This document shows positions 55,721 through 63,306 of a stretch of DNA of 64,000 nt, piece by piece. Numbering within the stretch: position 1 is the first letter of the stretch; each line of letters opens with the position of its first letter. The notes beneath the pieces were generated by a model. The model worked only from the letters and a program-made list of their open reading frames with translations. It ran no database searches and was not told the DNA's origin. Source of the DNA: Streptomyces sp. HUAS MG91 (GTDB lineage: Bacteria > Actinomycetota > Actinomycetes > Streptomycetales > Streptomycetaceae). A program made the translations under genes and the position numbers. The DNA lies in assembly GCF_040529335.1 (NCBI RefSeq), contig NZ_CP159534.1:744001-808000 (forward strand), in the 5' to 3' direction.

Positions 55721-56083
55721 TCAGGCGCCGAGCCGCTCCTCCTGCCGGTCGGCGGCGTCCAGGACGCTGTCCAGGAGACCGGGGAACAGGGTGTCGAGGT
55801 CGTCCCTGCGCAGCCCGTTCAGCTTCGTGGTGCCGCGGTAGACCTGCTCGATCACTCCGCTCTCGCGCAGCACCCGGAAGTGGTGGGTGGTCGTCGACTT
55901 GGTGACGGGCAGATCGAAGTGCGAGCAGGACAGCTCCGCGCTGCGCGCGCTCGCCATCTCACGGACGACCGCGAGCCGCATCGGATCGGACAGCGCGTGC
56001 AGCACGCCTTCGAGACGGATCTCCTCGCGGGCCGGGTGCACGAGCGTGCGGCTTCCGGTGGCCTGCGGTGCTGCGGTCGCCAT
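55721..56083 (-). CDS. ArsR-type helix-turn-helix regulator
   Basis: A 120-residue winged-helix repressor. The HTH region is LHALSDPMRLAVVREMASARSAELS and VTKSTTTHHFRVLRESGVIEQ, with a Cys in the sensor-like CSHFDLPVT segment but no full ArsR metal-site CxC. The wing follows as YRGTTKLNGLRRDDL. It is divergent from an Old Yellow Enzyme gene across two identical-form operators, so it probably represses that gene and itself. The effector is more likely organic or oxidative than arsenic. Confidence 0.88.
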   Translation of the reverse strand: MATAAPQATGSRTLVHPAREEIRLEGVLHALSDPMRLAVVREMASARSAELSCSHFDLPVTKSTTTHHFRVLRESGVIEQVYRGTTKLNGLRRDDLDTLFPGLLDSVLDAADRQEERLGA

Positions 56084-56131
56084 GACGACCTCCCCTTCAC
56101 GTCTCTCTGTCGAGCGGCTCGTCGGCCATTG

Positions 56132-56147
56132 TACGAGAACCCTCGTA
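56132..56147. promoter_or_regulatory. Operator box 1 (TACGAG-N4-CTCGTA)
   Basis: A perfect 6-4-6 inverted repeat 49 bp from the ArsR start. It shares the form TACGAK-N4-MTCGTA with box 2, whose centre is 34 bp away (about three helical turns). Confidence 0.7.
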
Positions 56148-56165
56148 GTTTGACATTCGCCGTAC

Positions 56166-56181
56166 TACGATGGCTATCGTA
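56166..56181. promoter_or_regulatory. Operator box 2 (TACGAT-N4-ATCGTA)
   Basis: A perfect 6-4-6 inverted repeat 38 bp before the Old Yellow Enzyme start. It is placed so that a bound repressor would cover that gene's promoter. Confidence 0.7.
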
Positions 56182-56218
56182 CGAAGCATCAGTCGCACCC
56201 CCATGAATGGAGTCCGCC

Positions 56219-57301
56219 GTGAGCGCGCTGTTCGAGCCCATCACCCTCCGGTCGCTGACCGTCCCGAACCGCGTCTGGATGCCGCCGATGTGCCAGTACA
56301 GCGCCCCGGCGGAGGGCCCGCTGACCGGCGCCCCGGGCGACTGGCACTTCCAGCACTACGGCGCCCGCGCGGCCGGCGGCACGGGCCTGATCATCGTCGA
56401 GGCGACGGGGGTCAGCCCCGAGGGCCGCATCTCCCCGTACGACCTCGGTATCTGGAACGACACGCAGGTCAAGGCCTTCCGCCGGATCACCGCGTTCCTG
56501 AAGTCGCAGAACACGACGCCTGGAATCCAGCTCGGTCACGCGGGCCGCAAGGCATCGACCGACCGCCCCTGGGCGGGCGGCGCCCCGGTCGGCCCGGAGG
56601 CCCACGGCTGGCAGGCCGTCGCGCCGAGCCCCGTCGCCTTCGACGAGCAGCACCCGGTGCCCACCGAGCTGACCGTCGACGGCATCGAGGAGATCGTCGG
56701 ACAGTTCGCGGACGCGGCGCGGCGCGCGCTCGACGCCGGGTTCGAGGTCGTCGAGATCCACGGTGCGCACGGCTATCTGATCGGCCAGTTCCTCTCCCCG
56801 CACTCCAACAAGCGCACCGACGAGTACGGCGGTTCCTACGAGAACCGCACCCGGTTCGCCCTGGAGGTCACCGACGCCGTACGTGCCGTGTGGCCCGAGG
56901 AGCTGCCGCTGTTCTTCCGCATCTCCGCCACCGACTGGCTGGAGGGGCAGGAGGGCTGGACCGCCGACGACACCGTCCGGTTCGCCGCCGAGCTCAAGGA
57001 GCACGGGGTCGACCTGATCGACGTGTCGACCGGTGGCAACGCCTCCGGGGTCCGCATCCCGGTCGGCCCCGGCTACCAGGTGCCCTTCGCGGCGCGCGTG
57101 CGCGACGAGGCGGGTGTCCCGGCCGCCGCGGTCGGTCTGATCACCGAGGTCCAGCAGGCCGAGAAGATCCTCGTGGACGGCGAGGCGGACGCCGTGCTGC
57201 TCGGCCGTGAGCTGCTGCGCGACCCGTCGTTCGCCCGGCACGCGGCCCGCGAGCTCGGCGCCGACGTGCACGTGCCGGACCAGTACCACCGGTCGGTCTG
57301 A
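56219..57301 (+). CDS. Old Yellow Enzyme family NADH:flavin oxidoreductase (YqjM-like)
   Basis: A 360-residue FMN-dependent ene-reductase of the YqjM class. Typical are NRVWMPPMCQYSA near residue 18, with the thiol-sensing Cys of that class, then QLGHAGRK and the catalytic EIHGAHGYLIGQFLSP with the NKRTDEYGGSYENRTRF block. It reduces activated C=C bonds using NAD(P)H in the cytosol and is often induced by thiol-reactive electrophiles. GTG at 56219 is preferred over ATG 56207 because GGAG sits 6 nt before it. A perfect terminator follows. The ArsR repressor is divergent. Confidence 0.93.
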   Translation: MSALFEPITLRSLTVPNRVWMPPMCQYSAPAEGPLTGAPGDWHFQHYGARAAGGTGLIIVEATGVSPEGRISPYDLGIWNDTQVKAFRRITAFLKSQNTTPGIQLGHAGRKASTDRPWAGGAPVGPEAHGWQAVAPSPVAFDEQHPVPTELTVDGIEEIVGQFADAARRALDAGFEVVEIHGAHGYLIGQFLSPHSNKRTDEYGGSYENRTRFALEVTDAVRAVWPEELPLFFRISATDWLEGQEGWTADDTVRFAAELKEHGVDLIDVSTGGNASGVRIPVGPGYQVPFAARVRDEAGVPAAAVGLITEVQQAEKILVDGEADAVLLGRELLRDPSFARHAARELGADVHVPDQYHRSV

Positions 57302-57339
57302 GCCGAACGGGTCCGGGCGGGGAGAGCCCGGGGAACGAC

Positions 57340-57385
57340 ACACGCGTCAGGGCGGAGGCGACAGCGCCTCCGCCCTGACGCGTGT
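57340..57385 (+). terminator. 21-bp perfect terminator stem
   Basis: Arms 57340-57360 and 57365-57385 are perfectly complementary over 21 bases with a 4-base ACAG loop, 38 bp after the Old Yellow Enzyme stop codon. It is the longest terminator-like stem in the window. Confidence 0.9.
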
Positions 57386-57406
57386 CCGCGTACGGGTCTG
57401 GGCCGG

Positions 57407-57448
57407 TGCCCATCGCCCGCGCGGGCACGGTGGGCGCGTGCACATGGT
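57407..57448. promoter_or_regulatory. Shared 42-bp element, MFS copy
   Basis: TGCCCA (57407-57412), 18 bases, TGGGCG (57431-57436), 2 bases, then TGCACATGGT (57439-57448). The spacing is identical to that of the copy before the acyl-CoA ligase gene. Probably the binding site of the PucR-like regulator between the two, which is inference. Confidence 0.7.
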
Positions 57449-57608
57449 CGCGTCGAGGGCGCGTACTCGATGCTGAACAACCACCGGCCACGCGCCTGAC
57501 CACCGGAAAGAACGGTGCCGCGCGGGGCCGCCGCCTCCCCCACGGCAATTCCTCGGCAATCTCCGGCGACCCCTGCTGCGCCGACGCGCGCACGCGGGAA
57601 GGACTGTG

Positions 57609-58934
57609 ATGCTCTCTCTGCCCGACGCGGTGCACGCGGCAGCCACCCGCACCGCCATGCGCCGGCTGCTGCCGGTGCTCGGCCTCGCCTACTTCATGTC
57701 GTACGTGGACCGGACGAACATCGCGCTGGCCAAGACCCGGCTCGAGGCCGACATCGGGGTGAGCGCGGCCGCGTACGGACTGGGCGCCGGCATCTTCTTC
57801 CTCAGCTACGCGCTGCTCGAAGTGCCCAGCAACATGGTGCTCCACCGGGTCGGGGCCCGGGTGTGGATCGCGCGGATCGCGGTGAGCTGGGGGCTGGTCT
57901 CGGCCGCCATGATGTTCGTGCAGGGAGAAGTCTCCTTCTACGTCCTGCGGTTCGTGCTCGGCGCCGCCGAGGCCGGGCTCTATCCGGCGCTGATGTACAC
58001 GGTGACGCTCTGGTTCGCCCAGCGGCACCGGGTGCCGGTCGTCGGGCTCGTCTACACCGCGCCCGCGCTCGCCACCCTGCTCGGGGCGCCGGCCGGGGGC
58101 GGACTGATGAACCTGGACGGGTTCGCCGGGCTCAAGGGCTGGCAGTGGATGTTCCTCGTCGAGGGCCTGGTGACCGTGGCGATCGGCGTACTGGTGTGGT
58201 TCGTGCTGCCGAGCCGCCCGGAGGACGCCAAGTGGCTGTCCGCCGAGCAGGCCGCAGCGCTGACCCGGCACGCGGCCGCCGGAGCCGAACCGTCGCCCCA
58301 CCGCCTGCGCGGCAACTTCCGCCTCGCCTTCGCCCGCCCCATCGTGCTGCTGCTGTCCGGGACCTACTTCGTGAACCAGCTCGTCGGATCCGCCGTCGGG
58401 TTCAACCTGCCGTCGATCGTGCAGGGGCTCGGCGTCTCGGATCCGCTGGACATCGGGCTGGTCACCGGCACGATGGGCCTGGCGATCCTCGCCGGGGTGC
58501 TCTTCTTCCCCTGGCTGCGGGGCCGCGTGGGCCGGGACACCGAACTGATCGTGCTGTGCGCGCTGGCCGGGACGGGGATCATGGCCGTCTATCTGGCGGT
58601 CGACGGCGCCGGAGCACGGTTCGGGCTGCTCTTCGCCGCGAACTTCTTCCTCACCGGAACGCTGCCGCTGTTCTGGTCCGTGGCGATGTCCCGGATGTCG
58701 GGTCTGATGGCCGCCGTGGGGCTGGCCTTCATCAACATGATCGGGCTGCTCGGCGGCTTCGTGGGGCCGCTGGTGTTCGGGGTCGTCGAGGACCGCAGCG
58801 GGGACGCGGACGCCCCGTTCGTCTTCGTCGTCGTCGCGGGCCTGGTGGGCAGCGTGCTGGCGGCGGCGCTGAAGTGGACGGTGGGCCGCGAGGAGCGGAC
58901 CGGCGTGCCCGCCGCGGCGGCGGCCGTCGACTGA
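57609..58934 (+). CDS. MFS transporter, ACS (anion:cation symporter) family
   Basis: A 441-residue, 12-helix MFS permease. The SYVDRTNIALAKTRLEADIG segment after the first helix is the ACS-family mark (D-R-T-N), and GMxxGP-type glycines recur in later helices. ACS carriers import organic anions such as phthalate, tartrate, glucarate or hydroxyphenylacetate with H+. The ATG at 57609 follows AAGGACTGTG. Its upstream region shares the 42-bp element with the acyl-CoA ligase, linking it to the downstream enzymes. The likely substrate is a carboxylic acid or ester. Confidence 0.9.
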   Translation: MLSLPDAVHAAATRTAMRRLLPVLGLAYFMSYVDRTNIALAKTRLEADIGVSAAAYGLGAGIFFLSYALLEVPSNMVLHRVGARVWIARIAVSWGLVSAAMMFVQGEVSFYVLRFVLGAAEAGLYPALMYTVTLWFAQRHRVPVVGLVYTAPALATLLGAPAGGGLMNLDGFAGLKGWQWMFLVEGLVTVAIGVLVWFVLPSRPEDAKWLSAEQAAALTRHAAAGAEPSPHRLRGNFRLAFARPIVLLLSGTYFVNQLVGSAVGFNLPSIVQGLGVSDPLDIGLVTGTMGLAILAGVLFFPWLRGRVGRDTELIVLCALAGTGIMAVYLAVDGAGARFGLLFAANFFLTGTLPLFWSVAMSRMSGLMAAVGLAFINMIGLLGGFVGPLVFGVVEDRSGDADAPFVFVVVAGLVGSVLAAALKWTVGREERTGVPAAAAAVD

Positions 58935-58954
58935 GCGGATCCCGCCCCGCCCTT

Positions 58955-58998
58955 GGGCGGTTGCCCAGGTGACGCCCCGGTCGTCTGGGCAACCGCCC
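58955..58998. promoter_or_regulatory. 14-bp-arm inverted repeat before the regulator gene
   Basis: GGGCGGTTGCCCAG (58955-58968) and CTGGGCAACCGCCC (58985-58998) are perfect arms with a 16-base spacer. They contain TGCCCA-N18-TGGGCA (58962-58991), the same core and spacing as the two 42-bp elements. It may also serve as the transporter gene's terminator. Auto-regulation is the favoured reading. Confidence 0.65.
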
Positions 58999-59041
58999 GT
59001 TCCTCTTCCCAGGCCGCAGGGCGGATGCCTATCCTCCGGCC

Positions 59042-60226
59042 ATGAACGACGAGTCGGCGCTGCGCCGCGAGCTGGCGATGACGCTGCTCACGGATCTCGA
59101 CCCCCTGATCGCCGATCTGGCGGCGGACATCTGCGCCCACAGCACGCGCTACGCCAGCGGCCGGCCCGTCTCGCGCGACGACCTCGAACTGACGTTGCGC
59201 GGCAACATCGAGCTGGCCCTCGGCGAGTTCGGCAGGCTGCCCGGTGACCGGGGCCGCTTCGAGGCCGTCGCCGCGGACAACGGGCGGCTGCGCGCCGAGC
59301 AGGGCATGCCGCTGGCCACCGTCCTGAAGGCCTACCGGCGCGGCGGGCGGGTCCTGTGGCAGGCCATGGCGGACTGGATGCGGGACCGGCCCCCGTCCCA
59401 GCAGCGGCTGATGGGCGACATGGCCGGCGCGGTGTGGGAGACCATCGACCGGTTCTCGTCCGAGATGGCCGACGCCTACCGGCTGCGCACCCTGGAGCTG
59501 GAGCACCGGGACGCGTCGCGGCGCGGCGCCCTGTTCGAGGCGCTGCTCGACGGCCGGGCCGGCGACCCGGCGGTGGCCGCCGCGGCCGCCTCCGCCCTCG
59601 GCGTGCCGCGCCACGACCGGTTCGTGGTGGTCCTCGTCGCCCAGGACGCGCGGGACCCCGCCTCGCCGCCCGACCCCGGACCCACGCTGGAGACGGCCGG
59701 CATGTGGTCGTTCTGGCGCTCGCGCGGCGAGACCGTGGCGGGCCTCGTCCGGCTGGGAACGCAGGAGCCGGCGGTCCTCGTCGACACGCTGCGCGCCCAC
59801 CTCGGCTACCGCGCCGGGGTCTCCCCCGCCTTCACCGAACTCGCCCTCGCCGACCAGGGACTGCGGCTAGCCCGGCGGGCGCTCGACACCCTGGCGCCGG
59901 GCCGCGGAGAGGTCGCCGAACTCGACGAACGGCTGGTGCACGCCGCGCTCGGCACGGAGCCGGAGATCGCGGAGCGGCTGGTGGCGCGCTATCTGGACGG
60001 CGTGCTGAGCAGCGGCGTCGAGGGTCCGGCGCTGCTCACGACGTTGCGGGTGTGGCTCGACTCGGGCTGCTCGGCGTCCCGCACCGCGGCCCGGCTGTTC
60101 TGCCACCGCAACACGGTCCTGAACCGGATCAGCAGGGTCGCCGAACTCACCGGCCGGCCCGCCGAGTCCGGCGAGGCCCGGCTCGGCTGGGCGCTGGCGC
60201 TGCGCGCGCTGGAACTGGCTCCGTGA
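59042..60226 (+). CDS. PucR/CdaR-like helix-turn-helix regulator
   Basis: A 394-residue regulator. The N-terminal part (MNDESALRRELAMTLLTDLDPLIADLA onward) resembles the helical RsbRD-like co-antagonist domain. A central GGDEF-like region follows, and the C-terminal PucR HTH reads AARLFCHRNTVLNRISRVAELT. TATCCT lies 6 nt before the ATG with no Shine-Dalgarno sequence, so it is probably leaderless. The inverted repeat at 58955-58998 precedes it, and related elements flank its neighbours, so it most likely controls the whole cluster. The effector is probably the transported acid or its CoA ester. Confidence 0.85.
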   Translation: MNDESALRRELAMTLLTDLDPLIADLAADICAHSTRYASGRPVSRDDLELTLRGNIELALGEFGRLPGDRGRFEAVAADNGRLRAEQGMPLATVLKAYRRGGRVLWQAMADWMRDRPPSQQRLMGDMAGAVWETIDRFSSEMADAYRLRTLELEHRDASRRGALFEALLDGRAGDPAVAAAAASALGVPRHDRFVVVLVAQDARDPASPPDPGPTLETAGMWSFWRSRGETVAGLVRLGTQEPAVLVDTLRAHLGYRAGVSPAFTELALADQGLRLARRALDTLAPGRGEVAELDERLVHAALGTEPEIAERLVARYLDGVLSSGVEGPALLTTLRVWLDSGCSASRTAARLFCHRNTVLNRISRVAELTGRPAESGEARLGWALALRALELAP

Positions 60227-60242
60227 CGCGCGGGGTGGCCGC

Positions 60243-60284
60243 TGCCCAGCGTGCCGCCGGTGATGGTGGGCAGTTGCACATGGT
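60243..60284. promoter_or_regulatory. Shared 42-bp element, acyl-CoA ligase copy
   Basis: TGCCCA (60243-60248), 18 bases, TGGGCA (60267-60272), 2 bases, then TGCACATGGT (60275-60284), identical in layout to 57407-57448. It lies 104 bp before the ligase start and 16 bp after the regulator stop. Confidence 0.72.
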
Positions 60285-60388
60285 GCCCGGTGGGGCGATG
60301 CCGGAAGCTGAGGCGGCCCGACCCGACCGCGCGTCCGTCCGACCGGGGCGCCGGCCACCCGAACGTGCACACATGCAAGGGAGCCGCT

Positions 60389-61876
60389 GTGCAACTGAGC
60401 GTCGCCACCGTCCTTCAGGAATCCGCCGCCCGCCACGGCGACCGCATCGCGGTCGTCGACGGCGACGTCCGCGTCAGCTACCGCACGCTGTGGCGCGAAG
60501 CGCTCCGCTTCGCCGCCCGGCTGCGGGCCCACGGCATCGGGCCCGGCGACCGCGTCGCGCTGCTGCTGCCCAACACCGTCGACTTCCCGCGCGCCTACTA
60601 CGCGGTGCTGGCCGCCGGCGGGACCGTGGTGCCGGTGCACGCCCTGCTCGTCGCGGACGAGGTCGTCCATGTGCTGGAGCACAGCGGCTGCCGGGCCATC
60701 GTCACCGCCGAGCCGTACGGTCCGGTGGCGCGGGCCGCCGCCGACGCGGCCGGGGTGGAGGTGCTGCACGTACAGACCGACGGCGACGACGAGCAGCTGT
60801 CCGGCGCCGAGCCGCGCGACGCCGACGACACCGCGGTGATCCTGTACACCAGCGGCACCACGGGCCGGCCGAAGGGCGCCCTGCTCACCCACGCCAATCT
60901 GGTCATGAACGCGTCGGTCTGCGCGCAGGACCTGTTCGCCCTGACCCCGGACGACGTGGTCCTGGGCTGTCTGCCGCTGTTCCACAGCTTCGGCCAGTCC
61001 TGCGCCATGAACGCCGCCCTGCGCGCCGGTTCGACGCTCGTCCTGTGCCCGCGTTTCACCGGGCCGGGCGCGCTGGAGCTGATGGTGCGCGAGGGGGTCA
61101 CGGTCTTCATGGGCGTACCGACGATGTATCACGCGCTCGTCGAGGCGGCCGACCGGGACGAGCGGCGGCCCGCGCTGCGGATGGCCGTCTCGGGCGGTGC
61201 GGCGCTGCCCGTCGCGCTCTTCGAACGCTTCGAGACCACCTTCGCCACCATGCTCCTGGAGGGGTACGGGCTGACGGAGACGTCTCCGGCGGCGACCTTC
61301 AACCAGCCGGCGTTCGGCCGCAGGCCCGGCACGGTCGGGCATCCGATCTGGGGGGTCGAGGCGGGCATCGCCGACGCCGAGACCGACGACCGCACCGTGC
61401 TGCTCCCGGACGGCGAGGTCGGGGAGGTCGTGCTGCGCGGCCACAACATCTTCGCGGGCTACCTCGACGACGCGGCGGCGAGCGCGGCCGCCGTCGTCGA
61501 CGGCTGGTTCCGCACCGGCGACCTGGGGGTGCGGGACGCCGAGGGGCGCCTCAGCATCGTCGACCGCAAGAAGGACCTCATCATCCGCGGCGGCTTCAAC
61601 GTCTATCCGCGCGAGGTCGAGGAGGTGCTCGCCCGGCACCCGGCCATCGCCCAGGTCAGCGTCATCGGCCTGCCCGACGAGCAGCGCGGCGAGGAGGTGT
61701 GTGCCGCCGTCGTGCTGCGGCCGGGCGCCACGGACAGCGGCGAGGACATCGTCGCCTGGGCCCGCGAACGGCTCGGCCGGCACAAGTATCCGCGCGTCGT
61801 CCGCCTGTTGAGCGAGCTGCCGCTCGGCCCGAGCGGCAAGATCCTCAAGCGGGAACTGCAGAAGGAGTGCGGATGA
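60389..61876 (+). CDS. Acyl-CoA synthetase/AMP-dependent ligase
   Basis: A 495-residue ANL-superfamily ligase. The AMP loop is YTSGTTGRPKGALLTH near residue 151, followed by GYGLTETSP near 293 and the C-terminal hinge VDRKKDLIIRGGFNVYPREVE. The catalytic Lys lies in GPSGKILKREL. It activates a carboxylic acid as acyl-AMP and transfers it to CoA. GTG start at 60389 behind AAGGGAGCCGCT. The ATGA overlap with the carboxylesterase gene shows one operon. The substrate could be an aromatic or medium-chain acid. Confidence 0.93.
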   Translation: MQLSVATVLQESAARHGDRIAVVDGDVRVSYRTLWREALRFAARLRAHGIGPGDRVALLLPNTVDFPRAYYAVLAAGGTVVPVHALLVADEVVHVLEHSGCRAIVTAEPYGPVARAAADAAGVEVLHVQTDGDDEQLSGAEPRDADDTAVILYTSGTTGRPKGALLTHANLVMNASVCAQDLFALTPDDVVLGCLPLFHSFGQSCAMNAALRAGSTLVLCPRFTGPGALELMVREGVTVFMGVPTMYHALVEAADRDERRPALRMAVSGGAALPVALFERFETTFATMLLEGYGLTETSPAATFNQPAFGRRPGTVGHPIWGVEAGIADAETDDRTVLLPDGEVGEVVLRGHNIFAGYLDDAAASAAAVVDGWFRTGDLGVRDAEGRLSIVDRKKDLIIRGGFNVYPREVEEVLARHPAIAQVSVIGLPDEQRGEEVCAAVVLRPGATDSGEDIVAWARERLGRHKYPRVVRLLSELPLGPSGKILKRELQKECG

Positions 61877-63306
61877 GCGTCGTCGAGACCGCGTACGGGC
61901 CGGTGCGCGGCCGCGCCGAGGACGGGGTGACCGTCTTCCTGGGCATCCCGTACGCGGCACCTCCGGTGGGCCCGCTGCGGCTGCGGCCGCCGGAGCCGCC
62001 CGAGCCCTGGGACGAGATCCTGGAGGCCGCCGACTTCGGCCCCACCGCCCCCAAGAACCCGTACGCCGCACCGCTGGACGCGCTGCTGCCCGACCCGGAC
62101 GTGCCCGGCGACGGCTGGCTCAACCTCAACGTGTGGACGCCCGCGGCGGACGGCGGTCCGCGGCCGGTCATGGTCTGGATCCACGGCGGCTCCCTGCGCA
62201 ACGGCTCCTCGGCCGTCCCGGTCTACGACGGCCGGGCCTTCGCCCGCGACGGCGTGGTGCTCGTCTCCCTCAACTACCGCCTCGGCATCGAAGGGTTCGG
62301 CGTCTTCCCCGACGCCCCGGCCAATCTCGGGCTGCGCGACCAGCTGGCCGCGCTCGCCTGGGTGCGGGAGAACATCCGCGCCTTCGGCGGCGATCCGGAC
62401 AACGTGACCGTGTTCGGTGAGTCCGCGGGCGCCATCAGCATCGGCGCCCTGCTGGCGAGTCCGCACGCGAAGGGGCTCTTCCACCGGGCGGTGCTGCAGA
62501 GCGGCGCGCCTTCGGCCGTGTCCCGGGACTCCGCCGCGCGCACCACCTCCGCCATCGCCGAACAGCTCGGCATCGAGGCCACTGCGGCGGCCTTCGCCGC
62601 TGCCGAGCCCGGCCGTCTGCTCGCCGCCCAGCGGGAGGTCACCCGGCGCGGAAATCCGCTGACCGGCGGTCTCGGCTTCCAGATCGTCGTCGACGGTGAC
62701 ATCGTCCCCGAGGATCCCGCCACGGCGCTGGCGCGGGGCGCGGCCGACGGCGTCGACGTGCTCCTCGGCAGCAACACCGACGAGTACCGCCTGTGGTTCG
62801 TGCCCAGTGGCCTCGTCGACCGGATCGGCCGGGTCACGCTGCGGGCCGCCGTGCTCAAGCAGCGGGTCCCGTGGCGTGCCCCGCGCGTCTACCGTGCCGG
62901 TCGGCCCGGCGCGTCACCGGGCGAGATCCTCGGCGCCCTCGCGACCGACACCCTGCTGCGGGTCCCCTTCAACCGGCTCGCCGACGCCCGCACGGGCCGC
63001 CCCGGCGGCACCTTCCTCTACGAGTTCGCATGGCCGTCGCCCGTGCGGCGGCTCGGCGCCTGCCACGCCCTGGAGATCGGCTTCGTCTTCGACACGCTCG
63101 GCACGGCGGACAGCCGCCTGCTCACCGGGGACGGTGCTCCGCAGGAACTGGCCGACGCGATGCACGGCGCCTGGGTCGCGTTCGCCACCACGGGCGACCC
63201 TGGCTGGCCCCGGTGGGACGCCGGCCGGCCCGTCATGACCTTCGGCGCCGACGGCCCGCACGTGGTGCACGCGCCCCGGGAGGAGGAGCGCCGTCTGTGG
63301 GGCTGA
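61873..63306 (+). CDS. Carboxylesterase/lipase family protein
   Basis: A 477-residue type B carboxylesterase. The oxyanion segment is WIHGGSL near 106, the nucleophile elbow is FGESAGA near 184, the acid Glu lies in SNTDEYRLW, and the His in LGACHALEIGF. The family hydrolyses carboxylic esters. It has no signal peptide, so it acts in the cytosol. The start ATG overlaps the ligase stop (ATGA) with AAGGAG upstream. An ester imported by the MFS carrier could be hydrolysed here and then activated by the ligase. Confidence 0.92.
   Translation: MSVVETAYGPVRGRAEDGVTVFLGIPYAAPPVGPLRLRPPEPPEPWDEILEAADFGPTAPKNPYAAPLDALLPDPDVPGDGWLNLNVWTPAADGGPRPVMVWIHGGSLRNGSSAVPVYDGRAFARDGVVLVSLNYRLGIEGFGVFPDAPANLGLRDQLAALAWVRENIRAFGGDPDNVTVFGESAGAISIGALLASPHAKGLFHRAVLQSGAPSAVSRDSAARTTSAIAEQLGIEATAAAFAAAEPGRLLAAQREVTRRGNPLTGGLGFQIVVDGDIVPEDPATALARGAADGVDVLLGSNTDEYRLWFVPSGLVDRIGRVTLRAAVLKQRVPWRAPRVYRAGRPGASPGEILGALATDTLLRVPFNRLADARTGRPGGTFLYEFAWPSPVRRLGACHALEIGFVFDTLGTADSRLLTGDGAPQELADAMHGAWVAFATTGDPGWPRWDAGRPVMTFGADGPHVVHAPREEERRLWG

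Follow-up and report, generated by a model that had tools for sequence, protein, structure and literature searches.

A candidate operator of a PucR-type regulator beside transporter, acyl-CoA ligase and carboxylesterase genes in Streptomyces

Why should the same bipartite DNA element occur before a transporter gene and again before an acyl-CoA ligase gene, with the gene of a PucR-like regulator between the two? The question is raised by 64,000 nt of Streptomyces sp. HUAS MG91 DNA (NZ_CP159534.1, positions 744,001 to 808,000). This whole stretch is called the window here, and coordinates below are positions in it. As a single step, it is very probable from the comparison of sequences that the cluster's PucR regulator has its operator in this element. 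As the best explanation of the data as a whole, we hold with slightly less, but still high, confidence that the PucR-type protein encoded at 59042-60226 uses the element as its operator. The features on which this reading turns are as follows.

57399 to 57448, forward strand: predicted operator before the major facilitator superfamily (MFS) transporter gene, TGGGCC-GG-TGCCCA-N18-TGGGCG-CG-TGCACATGGT
59042 to 60226, forward strand: PucR-family regulator gene (HTH_30, GGDEF-like domain, predicted globin-like N-domain), encoding the proposed operator binder
60235 to 60284, forward strand: predicted operator before the acyl-CoA ligase gene, GTGGCC-GC-TGCCCA-N18-TGGGCA-GT-TGCACATGGT

The initial annotation had placed the pattern TGCCCA-N18-TGGGC-N3-TGCACATGGT before the transporter and ligase genes, and it is found there at exactly 57407-57448 and 60243-60284. 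In the window this full pattern was matched twice, and 100 dinucleotide shuffles gave no match. When 22 bases were specified and up to three mismatches allowed, just these two sites were matched in the 8,616,192-base genome, and the looser TGNCCA-N18-TGNGC-N4-GCACA (14 specified bases) matched the same two alone; the reversed-pattern control gave 0 matches in both searches. The shuffles and the uniqueness of the pair in the genome bear out the earlier claim that a chance origin is very unlikely. Two details were revised. The count of two copies holds for the full pattern with its tail, but a third copy of the inverted core, before the PucR-like gene, had been missed. The boxes that defined the 42-bp extent were correct, but the conserved element begins about 6-8 bases further left, with a GGCC box.

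For the comparison across species, named loci were fetched with the regulator alignment as query, one genome per species, in a scan that was seeded by two peptide patterns and was not exhaustive. Among the 47 loci, 40 carry window-clade regulators: 39 treated as orthologous, all from Streptomyces, and one paralogue (L071, 58% identical). The other seven, from Kribbella, Nocardioides and Pimelobacter, carry distant relatives (34-40% identity). In most of the orthologous loci, 33 of 39, pucR and the ligase gene are divergent, and the element lies between them and points to the ligase; an esterase gene was matched in 30 of these 33. The gene order MFS-pucR-ligase-esterase is found in the window, L069 and L070, with elements before both the MFS and the ligase gene. 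At L037, pucR is divergent from an esterase gene alone and the element is kept. At no more than about 500 bp from pucR, 25-29 of 29 consensus positions were matched at 35 loci and 21-22 at the remaining four of the 39 (L081, L085, L090 and L106), against a consensus drawn from the same sites that were then scored. The 1380 maxima from mononucleotide shuffles of the examined flanks had a mean of 16.7, and the largest, 21, was reached once. L090 and L106 have an MFS site with a changed first box, and the L090 contig ends inside pucR. When the 46 target-gene sites were reduced to 23 at <80% identity, the same positions stayed conserved; between the conserved boxes, spacers of variable sequence keep a constant length across species. 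The initial annotation had named absence before orthologous clusters as the observation that would count against it, and the element proved to be present in tens of Streptomyces species.

The element also co-occurs with the regulator. A PucR orthologue (E < 1e-60) was found in 11 of 150 Streptomyces genomes, and the exact pattern TGCCCA-N18-TGGGC-N4-GCACAT in eight of the 150: 8 of the 11 with the orthologue and 0 of the 139 without it. Under random placement, the probability that all eight would fall among the 11 is P = 3e-11. The three orthologue-bearing genomes without an exact site are G098, where one mismatch separates the site from the pattern, and G074 and G012, which are taken up below. 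With one mismatch allowed, nine scattered matches appeared in eight orthologue-lacking genomes and one extra match in G019; the reversed control gave four. At L081 and L085 the window-clade pucR is divergent from a short-chain dehydrogenase (SDR) gene, no ligase or esterase match was found in the locus, and the variant TGCCCA-N18-TGTGCA-CCT-GCACAG lies between pucR and the SDR gene. Judged from these loci, the site follows the regulator when the target genes change. The HUAS MG91 genome also holds a paralogue (G000:C1:8106068-8107228; L034:6069-7223), a 59% identical regulator beside an Esterase_PHB gene, with the variant CGCCCA-N18-TGTGCG-N3-TCACAT, which has a counterpart in a relative's copy (L071). 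The regulon that the initial annotation had called probable is thus well supported by comparison, through conservation before orthologous targets and co-occurrence with the PucR orthologue. It would comprise the transporter, ligase and esterase genes, and its operator would have a layout new to a regulator family that is itself known.

The boxes stand in a fixed register: TGCCCA (box 1), 18 bp, TGGGC(A/G) (box 2), 2 bp and TGCACA (box 3), with a conserved GGCC-type box (box 0) just 5' of box 1. Boxes 2 and 3 make up a 14-bp dyad, TGNGCA-NN-TGCACA (general form TGNGCA-NN-TGCNCA). For a matrix built from this dyad alone, the best other match lay 32 bp upstream in both PucR clades, as GGGGCC-NN-TGCCCA in clade 1 (that of the window) or GCTGCC-NN-TGACCA in clade 2 (described below), a test that partly builds in its result, as box 1 served to pick the sites. 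A second, degenerate dyad, centred 32 bp (about three helical turns) upstream, may be made up of boxes 0 and 1. It is no more than a possible dyad because box 1 preselected the sites and the test of the box 0 half-site is modest.

The initial annotation had lacked the likely promoter logic, that is, a -10-like box at a fixed distance and spaced half-sites over the -35 region. At 42 of the 54 listed sites, GA[TA]NCTG follows GCACAT, at 23 nt in 38 sites and at 22 nt in four; in most target sites the conserved consensus of this -10-like box is GATTCT(G). It is absent from the other 12 sites, eight of which are pucR-proximal copies or divergent variants. The two boxes in the window are these.

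57469 to 57474, forward strand: -10-like box GATGCT of the predicted MFS promoter, by the GA[TA]NCTG rule
60304 to 60309, forward strand: -10-like box GAAGCT of the predicted ligase promoter, 22 nt after GCACAT

If the GATTCT-like box is the -10 hexamer, the downstream dyad would fall on the -35 region, near -43, and the upstream dyad near -75; transcription would start near 57481 and 60316. The element would then lie over or next to the -35 region, a position derived from the conserved -10-like box. We propose that the regulator, as an oligomer, would bind the boxes from one face of the DNA and, with an inducer, would recruit RNA polymerase to the promoters of the transporter and ligase-esterase genes. 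The inducer might be an ester-derived or aromatic-type acid, or its coenzyme A (CoA) thioester. Two dyads held by two dimers is a step to which we give an even chance; it is rated lower because the MabR paper, in the part available, supports the dimer as the DNA-binding form, contrary to this step (PMC11617747).

The direction of control is a separate matter, and it seems likely that the regulator is an activator rather than a repressor. Were PucR to bind the same sites as a repressor, it would sit on the -35 region and be released by the inducer, and the downstream dyad over the predicted -35 region fits polymerase exclusion as well as class II activation. The near-fixed spacing to the -10-like box is instead what would be expected of an activator that contacts polymerase. 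Moreover, according to the available text of a 2020 paper, few PucR-type regulators had been studied by then and those studied activate, with B. subtilis PucR doing both (PMC7652997). Repression is therefore unlikely.

The operator reading can also be examined in a second PucR clade. Nineteen PucR homologues in the same 150 Streptomyces genomes, with identities of 33-41% (L015-L033), served as control loci; 12 of them have TGNCCA-N18-TGNGC-N4-GCACA no more than 350 bp upstream of the region matched. The clade-2 layout is TGACCA-N18-TGTGCA-N3-GCACAA; clade-2 loci are among L015-L033, with L118-L125 in addition. The operator spacing is that of the window clade, whereas the regulator is about 35% identical, the half-site letters are different, and the site points to pucR and not away from it. 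In a quick tree of 31 regulators, five clade-2 rows (Shimodaira-Hasegawa-like approximate likelihood ratio test, SH-aLRT, 100) stood apart from 22 window-clade rows (99). Subunits of LIV-type (branched-chain amino acid) ATP-binding cassette (ABC) transporters adjoin pucR in all of the loci whose neighbours were analysed, five of eight larger ones (L119, L122-L125), and the NCBIfam Liv models match these genes below their cut-offs.

In a scan with TGNCCA-N18-TGNGC-N4-GCACA, made independently of any protein, 40 of 101 Streptomyces genomes were matched, with 50 matches in all compared with two for the reversed control. Thirty of the 50 were taken as loci: in 22 a PucR gene is no more than 1.5 kb away, a relative's MFS site (L146) accounts for one more, three (L133, L139 and L152) stand before LIV-type ABC genes and have no PucR so close, and four are unexplained and perhaps due to chance. 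Of the other 20 places, at least 14 lie within 2 kb of a PucR match, and for up to six no such match was listed. In a class-wide scan with a degenerate pattern, 13 of 148 genomes were matched; outside the genus there were ten matches in 10 of 137 genomes compared with two for the reversed control. One of the ten, L170, from another family, lies beside a clade-2-like PucR. Since only this match adjoins PucR, the degenerate pattern alone is uninformative far from Streptomyces. The chances are about even that globin-sensor PucRs in Streptomyces and some other actinomycetes share an ancestral operator grammar, TGNCCA-N18-TGNGC-N4-GCACA, in which two 14-bp dyads would stand 32 bp apart. On that proposal, clades about 35% identical would have kept the spacing, changed the letters (TGCCCA/TGACCA, TGGGC/TGTGC, GCACAT/GCACAA) and come to control unrelated pathways. 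If it is true, the layout could be used to read off the regulons of many uncharacterised PucR proteins.

Canonical clade-2 operators also stand before LIV-type ABC genes at L133, L139 and L152/L160, with no PucR within 1.5 kb; these are possible orphan operators controlled in trans. Three of them (L133, L139 and L152) are what could be cited if the sites belonged to another regulator, global or unlinked, that controls the cluster. The site of a global regulator would recur, yet the element occurs nowhere else in the genome, the exact pattern is missing from the 139 orthologue-lacking Streptomyces genomes, and the sites track pucR even where the neighbouring genes change. We regard a foreign regulator as very unlikely.

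The third copy of the core, close to pucR, is of a different form.

58954 to 58999, no strand assigned: third, nearly symmetric copy, TGGGCG-GT-TGCCCA-N18-TGGGCA-AC-CGCCCG; probable autoregulatory operator and/or MFS terminator hairpin

Its core, TGCCCA-N18-TGGGCA at 58962-58991, is without the TGCACATGGT tail and is flanked by TGGGCGGT and ACCGCCCG, which gives the near symmetry. The search for the inverted core returned five hits with both strands counted, compared with 0.03 expected. The copy can pair into a hairpin (about 20 bp) that ends in a T-rich tail, and it has a terminator-like score; the RNA fold z was -4.0 in the window and -7.6 in L069, a 94%-identical relative in which the copy is a perfect 20-bp inverted repeat. 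In the gap between the MFS gene and pucR, L090 and L106 have degenerate copies that fold as hairpins, and L070 has an unrelated hairpin. From its sequence the copy is somewhat more probably an operator, and pucR would then be autoregulated; a terminator function, possibly alongside the operator role, is a tentative assignment. Six bases before the pucR ATG (59030-59042) there is a TATCCT, which is kept in L070 and L106 and reads TATTCT in L069 and L090; the pucR message may be leaderless.

This hairpin is also what could be advanced for an RNA-level element (terminator, attenuator or riboswitch) in place of an operator. The MFS and ligase copies, however, show no stronger folding than shuffles do (z -0.9 and -0.1, respectively), an Rfam search of 57200-60500 gave two sub-threshold hits and none at the gathering threshold, and both copies lie upstream of the predicted -10 box and would not be transcribed from that promoter. 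An RNA-level element is accordingly extremely unlikely. Chance, or a recent duplication or mobile repeat, would account for two very similar copies no more than 2.8 kb apart, but its probability is close to nil given the empty shuffles (0/100), the uniqueness of the pair in the genome and the conserved boxes with variable spacers of constant length across species.

Several observations nevertheless weigh against the operator of a PucR-type regulator as the explanation. Many of the 46 target sites come from closely related species. The L106 ligase site has a spacer of 19 bases instead of 18, the window-clade locus L038 (G074) has a weak site (15/18), and no site was found at L045 (G012), whose pucR match is broken in two. 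At the paralogue (L034/L071, 58-59% identical) the variant is weak, 14/18 (19/29 of the consensus), and its orientation is unexpected. Relatives outside Streptomyces at 34-37% identity (L108, L109, L112-L115) score 16-19, inside the null range. Box 0 alone, which contains no selected bases, ranked 3 of 368 positions in clade 1 and fell outside the top four in clade 2. A simple promoter scan returned no sigma-70-like site; none would be expected in shuffles either, hence it carries little information. Finally, the copy before pucR is also a good terminator candidate, and the preference for a dimer in the MabR paper has been mentioned above.

Two loci call for separate remarks. With its split regulator match and a partial ligase match, L045 (G012:C1:3040674-3041584) is apparently a decaying copy of the cluster without an operator. 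In Nocardioides donggukensis (L110:6975-7004), TGCCCA-N18-TGGGCA has a 40%-identical pucR on one side and, on the other, genes with molybdopterin-binding and 2Fe-2S domains. This match is no more than suggestive because an equally perfect core falls within an open reading frame of L081, apparently by chance.

The regulator gene lies between the two elements, as the initial annotation had it, in the order MFS, PucR-like, acyl-CoA ligase and carboxylesterase. The other genes of the cluster are the following.

57606 to 58934, forward strand: MFS transporter gene (PF07690), anion:cation symporter (ACS)-like, related to HpaX and D-galactonate transporters
60389 to 61876, forward strand: acyl-CoA ligase (AMP-binding) gene (PF00501, PF13193)
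61873 to 63306, forward strand: type-B carboxylesterase gene (PF00135), whose start overlaps the ligase stop codon

TIGR00893 and TIGR02332 matched the transporter, both under their cut-offs, and its nearest solved structure is the D-galactonate transporter (PDB 6e9n). The best PDB relative is feruloyl-CoA synthetase (8wev) for the ligase and a carboxylesterase (7w1j) for the esterase. These relatives of the ligase and esterase suggest that the cluster serves the use of esters or aromatic acids. The few neighbours inspected in L073, L102 and L040 (terpene synthase, amidase, CoA-binding protein and others) gave no consistent pathway. Just 5' of the cluster, at 55721-57301, an ArsR-like regulator gene is divergent from an old-yellow-enzyme (flavin mononucleotide oxidoreductase) gene.

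If the operator reading holds, it offers a concrete candidate site, with promoter context, for a MabR-like PucR in Streptomyces, and a small local regulon of transporter, acyl-CoA ligase and carboxylesterase genes with a candidate ester- or acid-inducible promoter. The second clade, with the same spacing but changed letters, would make DNA recognition by HTH_30 testable by swaps. The initial annotation had regarded the operator as previously undescribed, and no description of it was found in the literature searched, with most subscription journals outside its scope; PMC9240718 and PMC9397018 each name PucR a single time.

The regulator belongs to the PucR family by its HTH_30 domain (PF13556, 72.8 bits, cut-off 27) and its GGDEF-like domain (PF17853, 29.5 bits, cut-off 24.5). 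A GGDEF-like domain is found in about half of the PucR family. The predicted model (predicted local distance difference test score, pLDDT, 91.3) has an all-helical N-domain followed by the GGDEF-like and helix-turn-helix (HTH) domains. Its nearest solved relatives are BAD_0249 and Rv2242/MabR of Mycobacterium tuberculosis, the C-terminal part of which (9f80) was the best sequence and fold match and the first in Foldseek (E 8.5e-8). For the N-domain, globin-sensor matches appeared at E 0.04 and above only, yet with a target template modelling (TM) score of about 0.7. We predict a MabR-type PucR with globin-like N-domain, GGDEF-like domain and HTH_30. The MabR operator reportedly reads TTTTGT-N21-ACAAAA, a different sequence from the element here.

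MabR itself consists of globin-like, GGDEF-like and HTH domains, the order predicted for our regulator, and according to the available part of its description forms dimers and tetramers in solution through two dimer interfaces (PMC11617747). Unlike our regulator it controls mycolic acid synthesis, and the two are 22% identical in the fold alignment. The Bacillus subtilis regulators AdeR, PutR and PucR are likewise PucR-type regulators of catabolic genes, but their sites differ in length and layout from the element: the available text gives inverted repeats of 24 bp for AdeR and 17 bp for PutR and a non-palindromic site for PucR (PMC7652997), and the AdeR site, with CTCATT, is unrelated in sequence (PMC9894248, likewise in the part available). 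GabR of Corynebacterium glutamicum, as described in the accessible part of the same 2020 paper, is an octamer that activates gabTDP and binds two inverted repeats between -87 and -23 (PMC7652997). It is without a GGDEF-like domain and has other targets, and its repeats are 21 bp long. It resembles the system proposed here in the divergent layout of regulator and target and the local regulon; its large oligomer and its pair of inverted repeats, directly 5' of the -35 region, correspond to what is predicted for our regulator.

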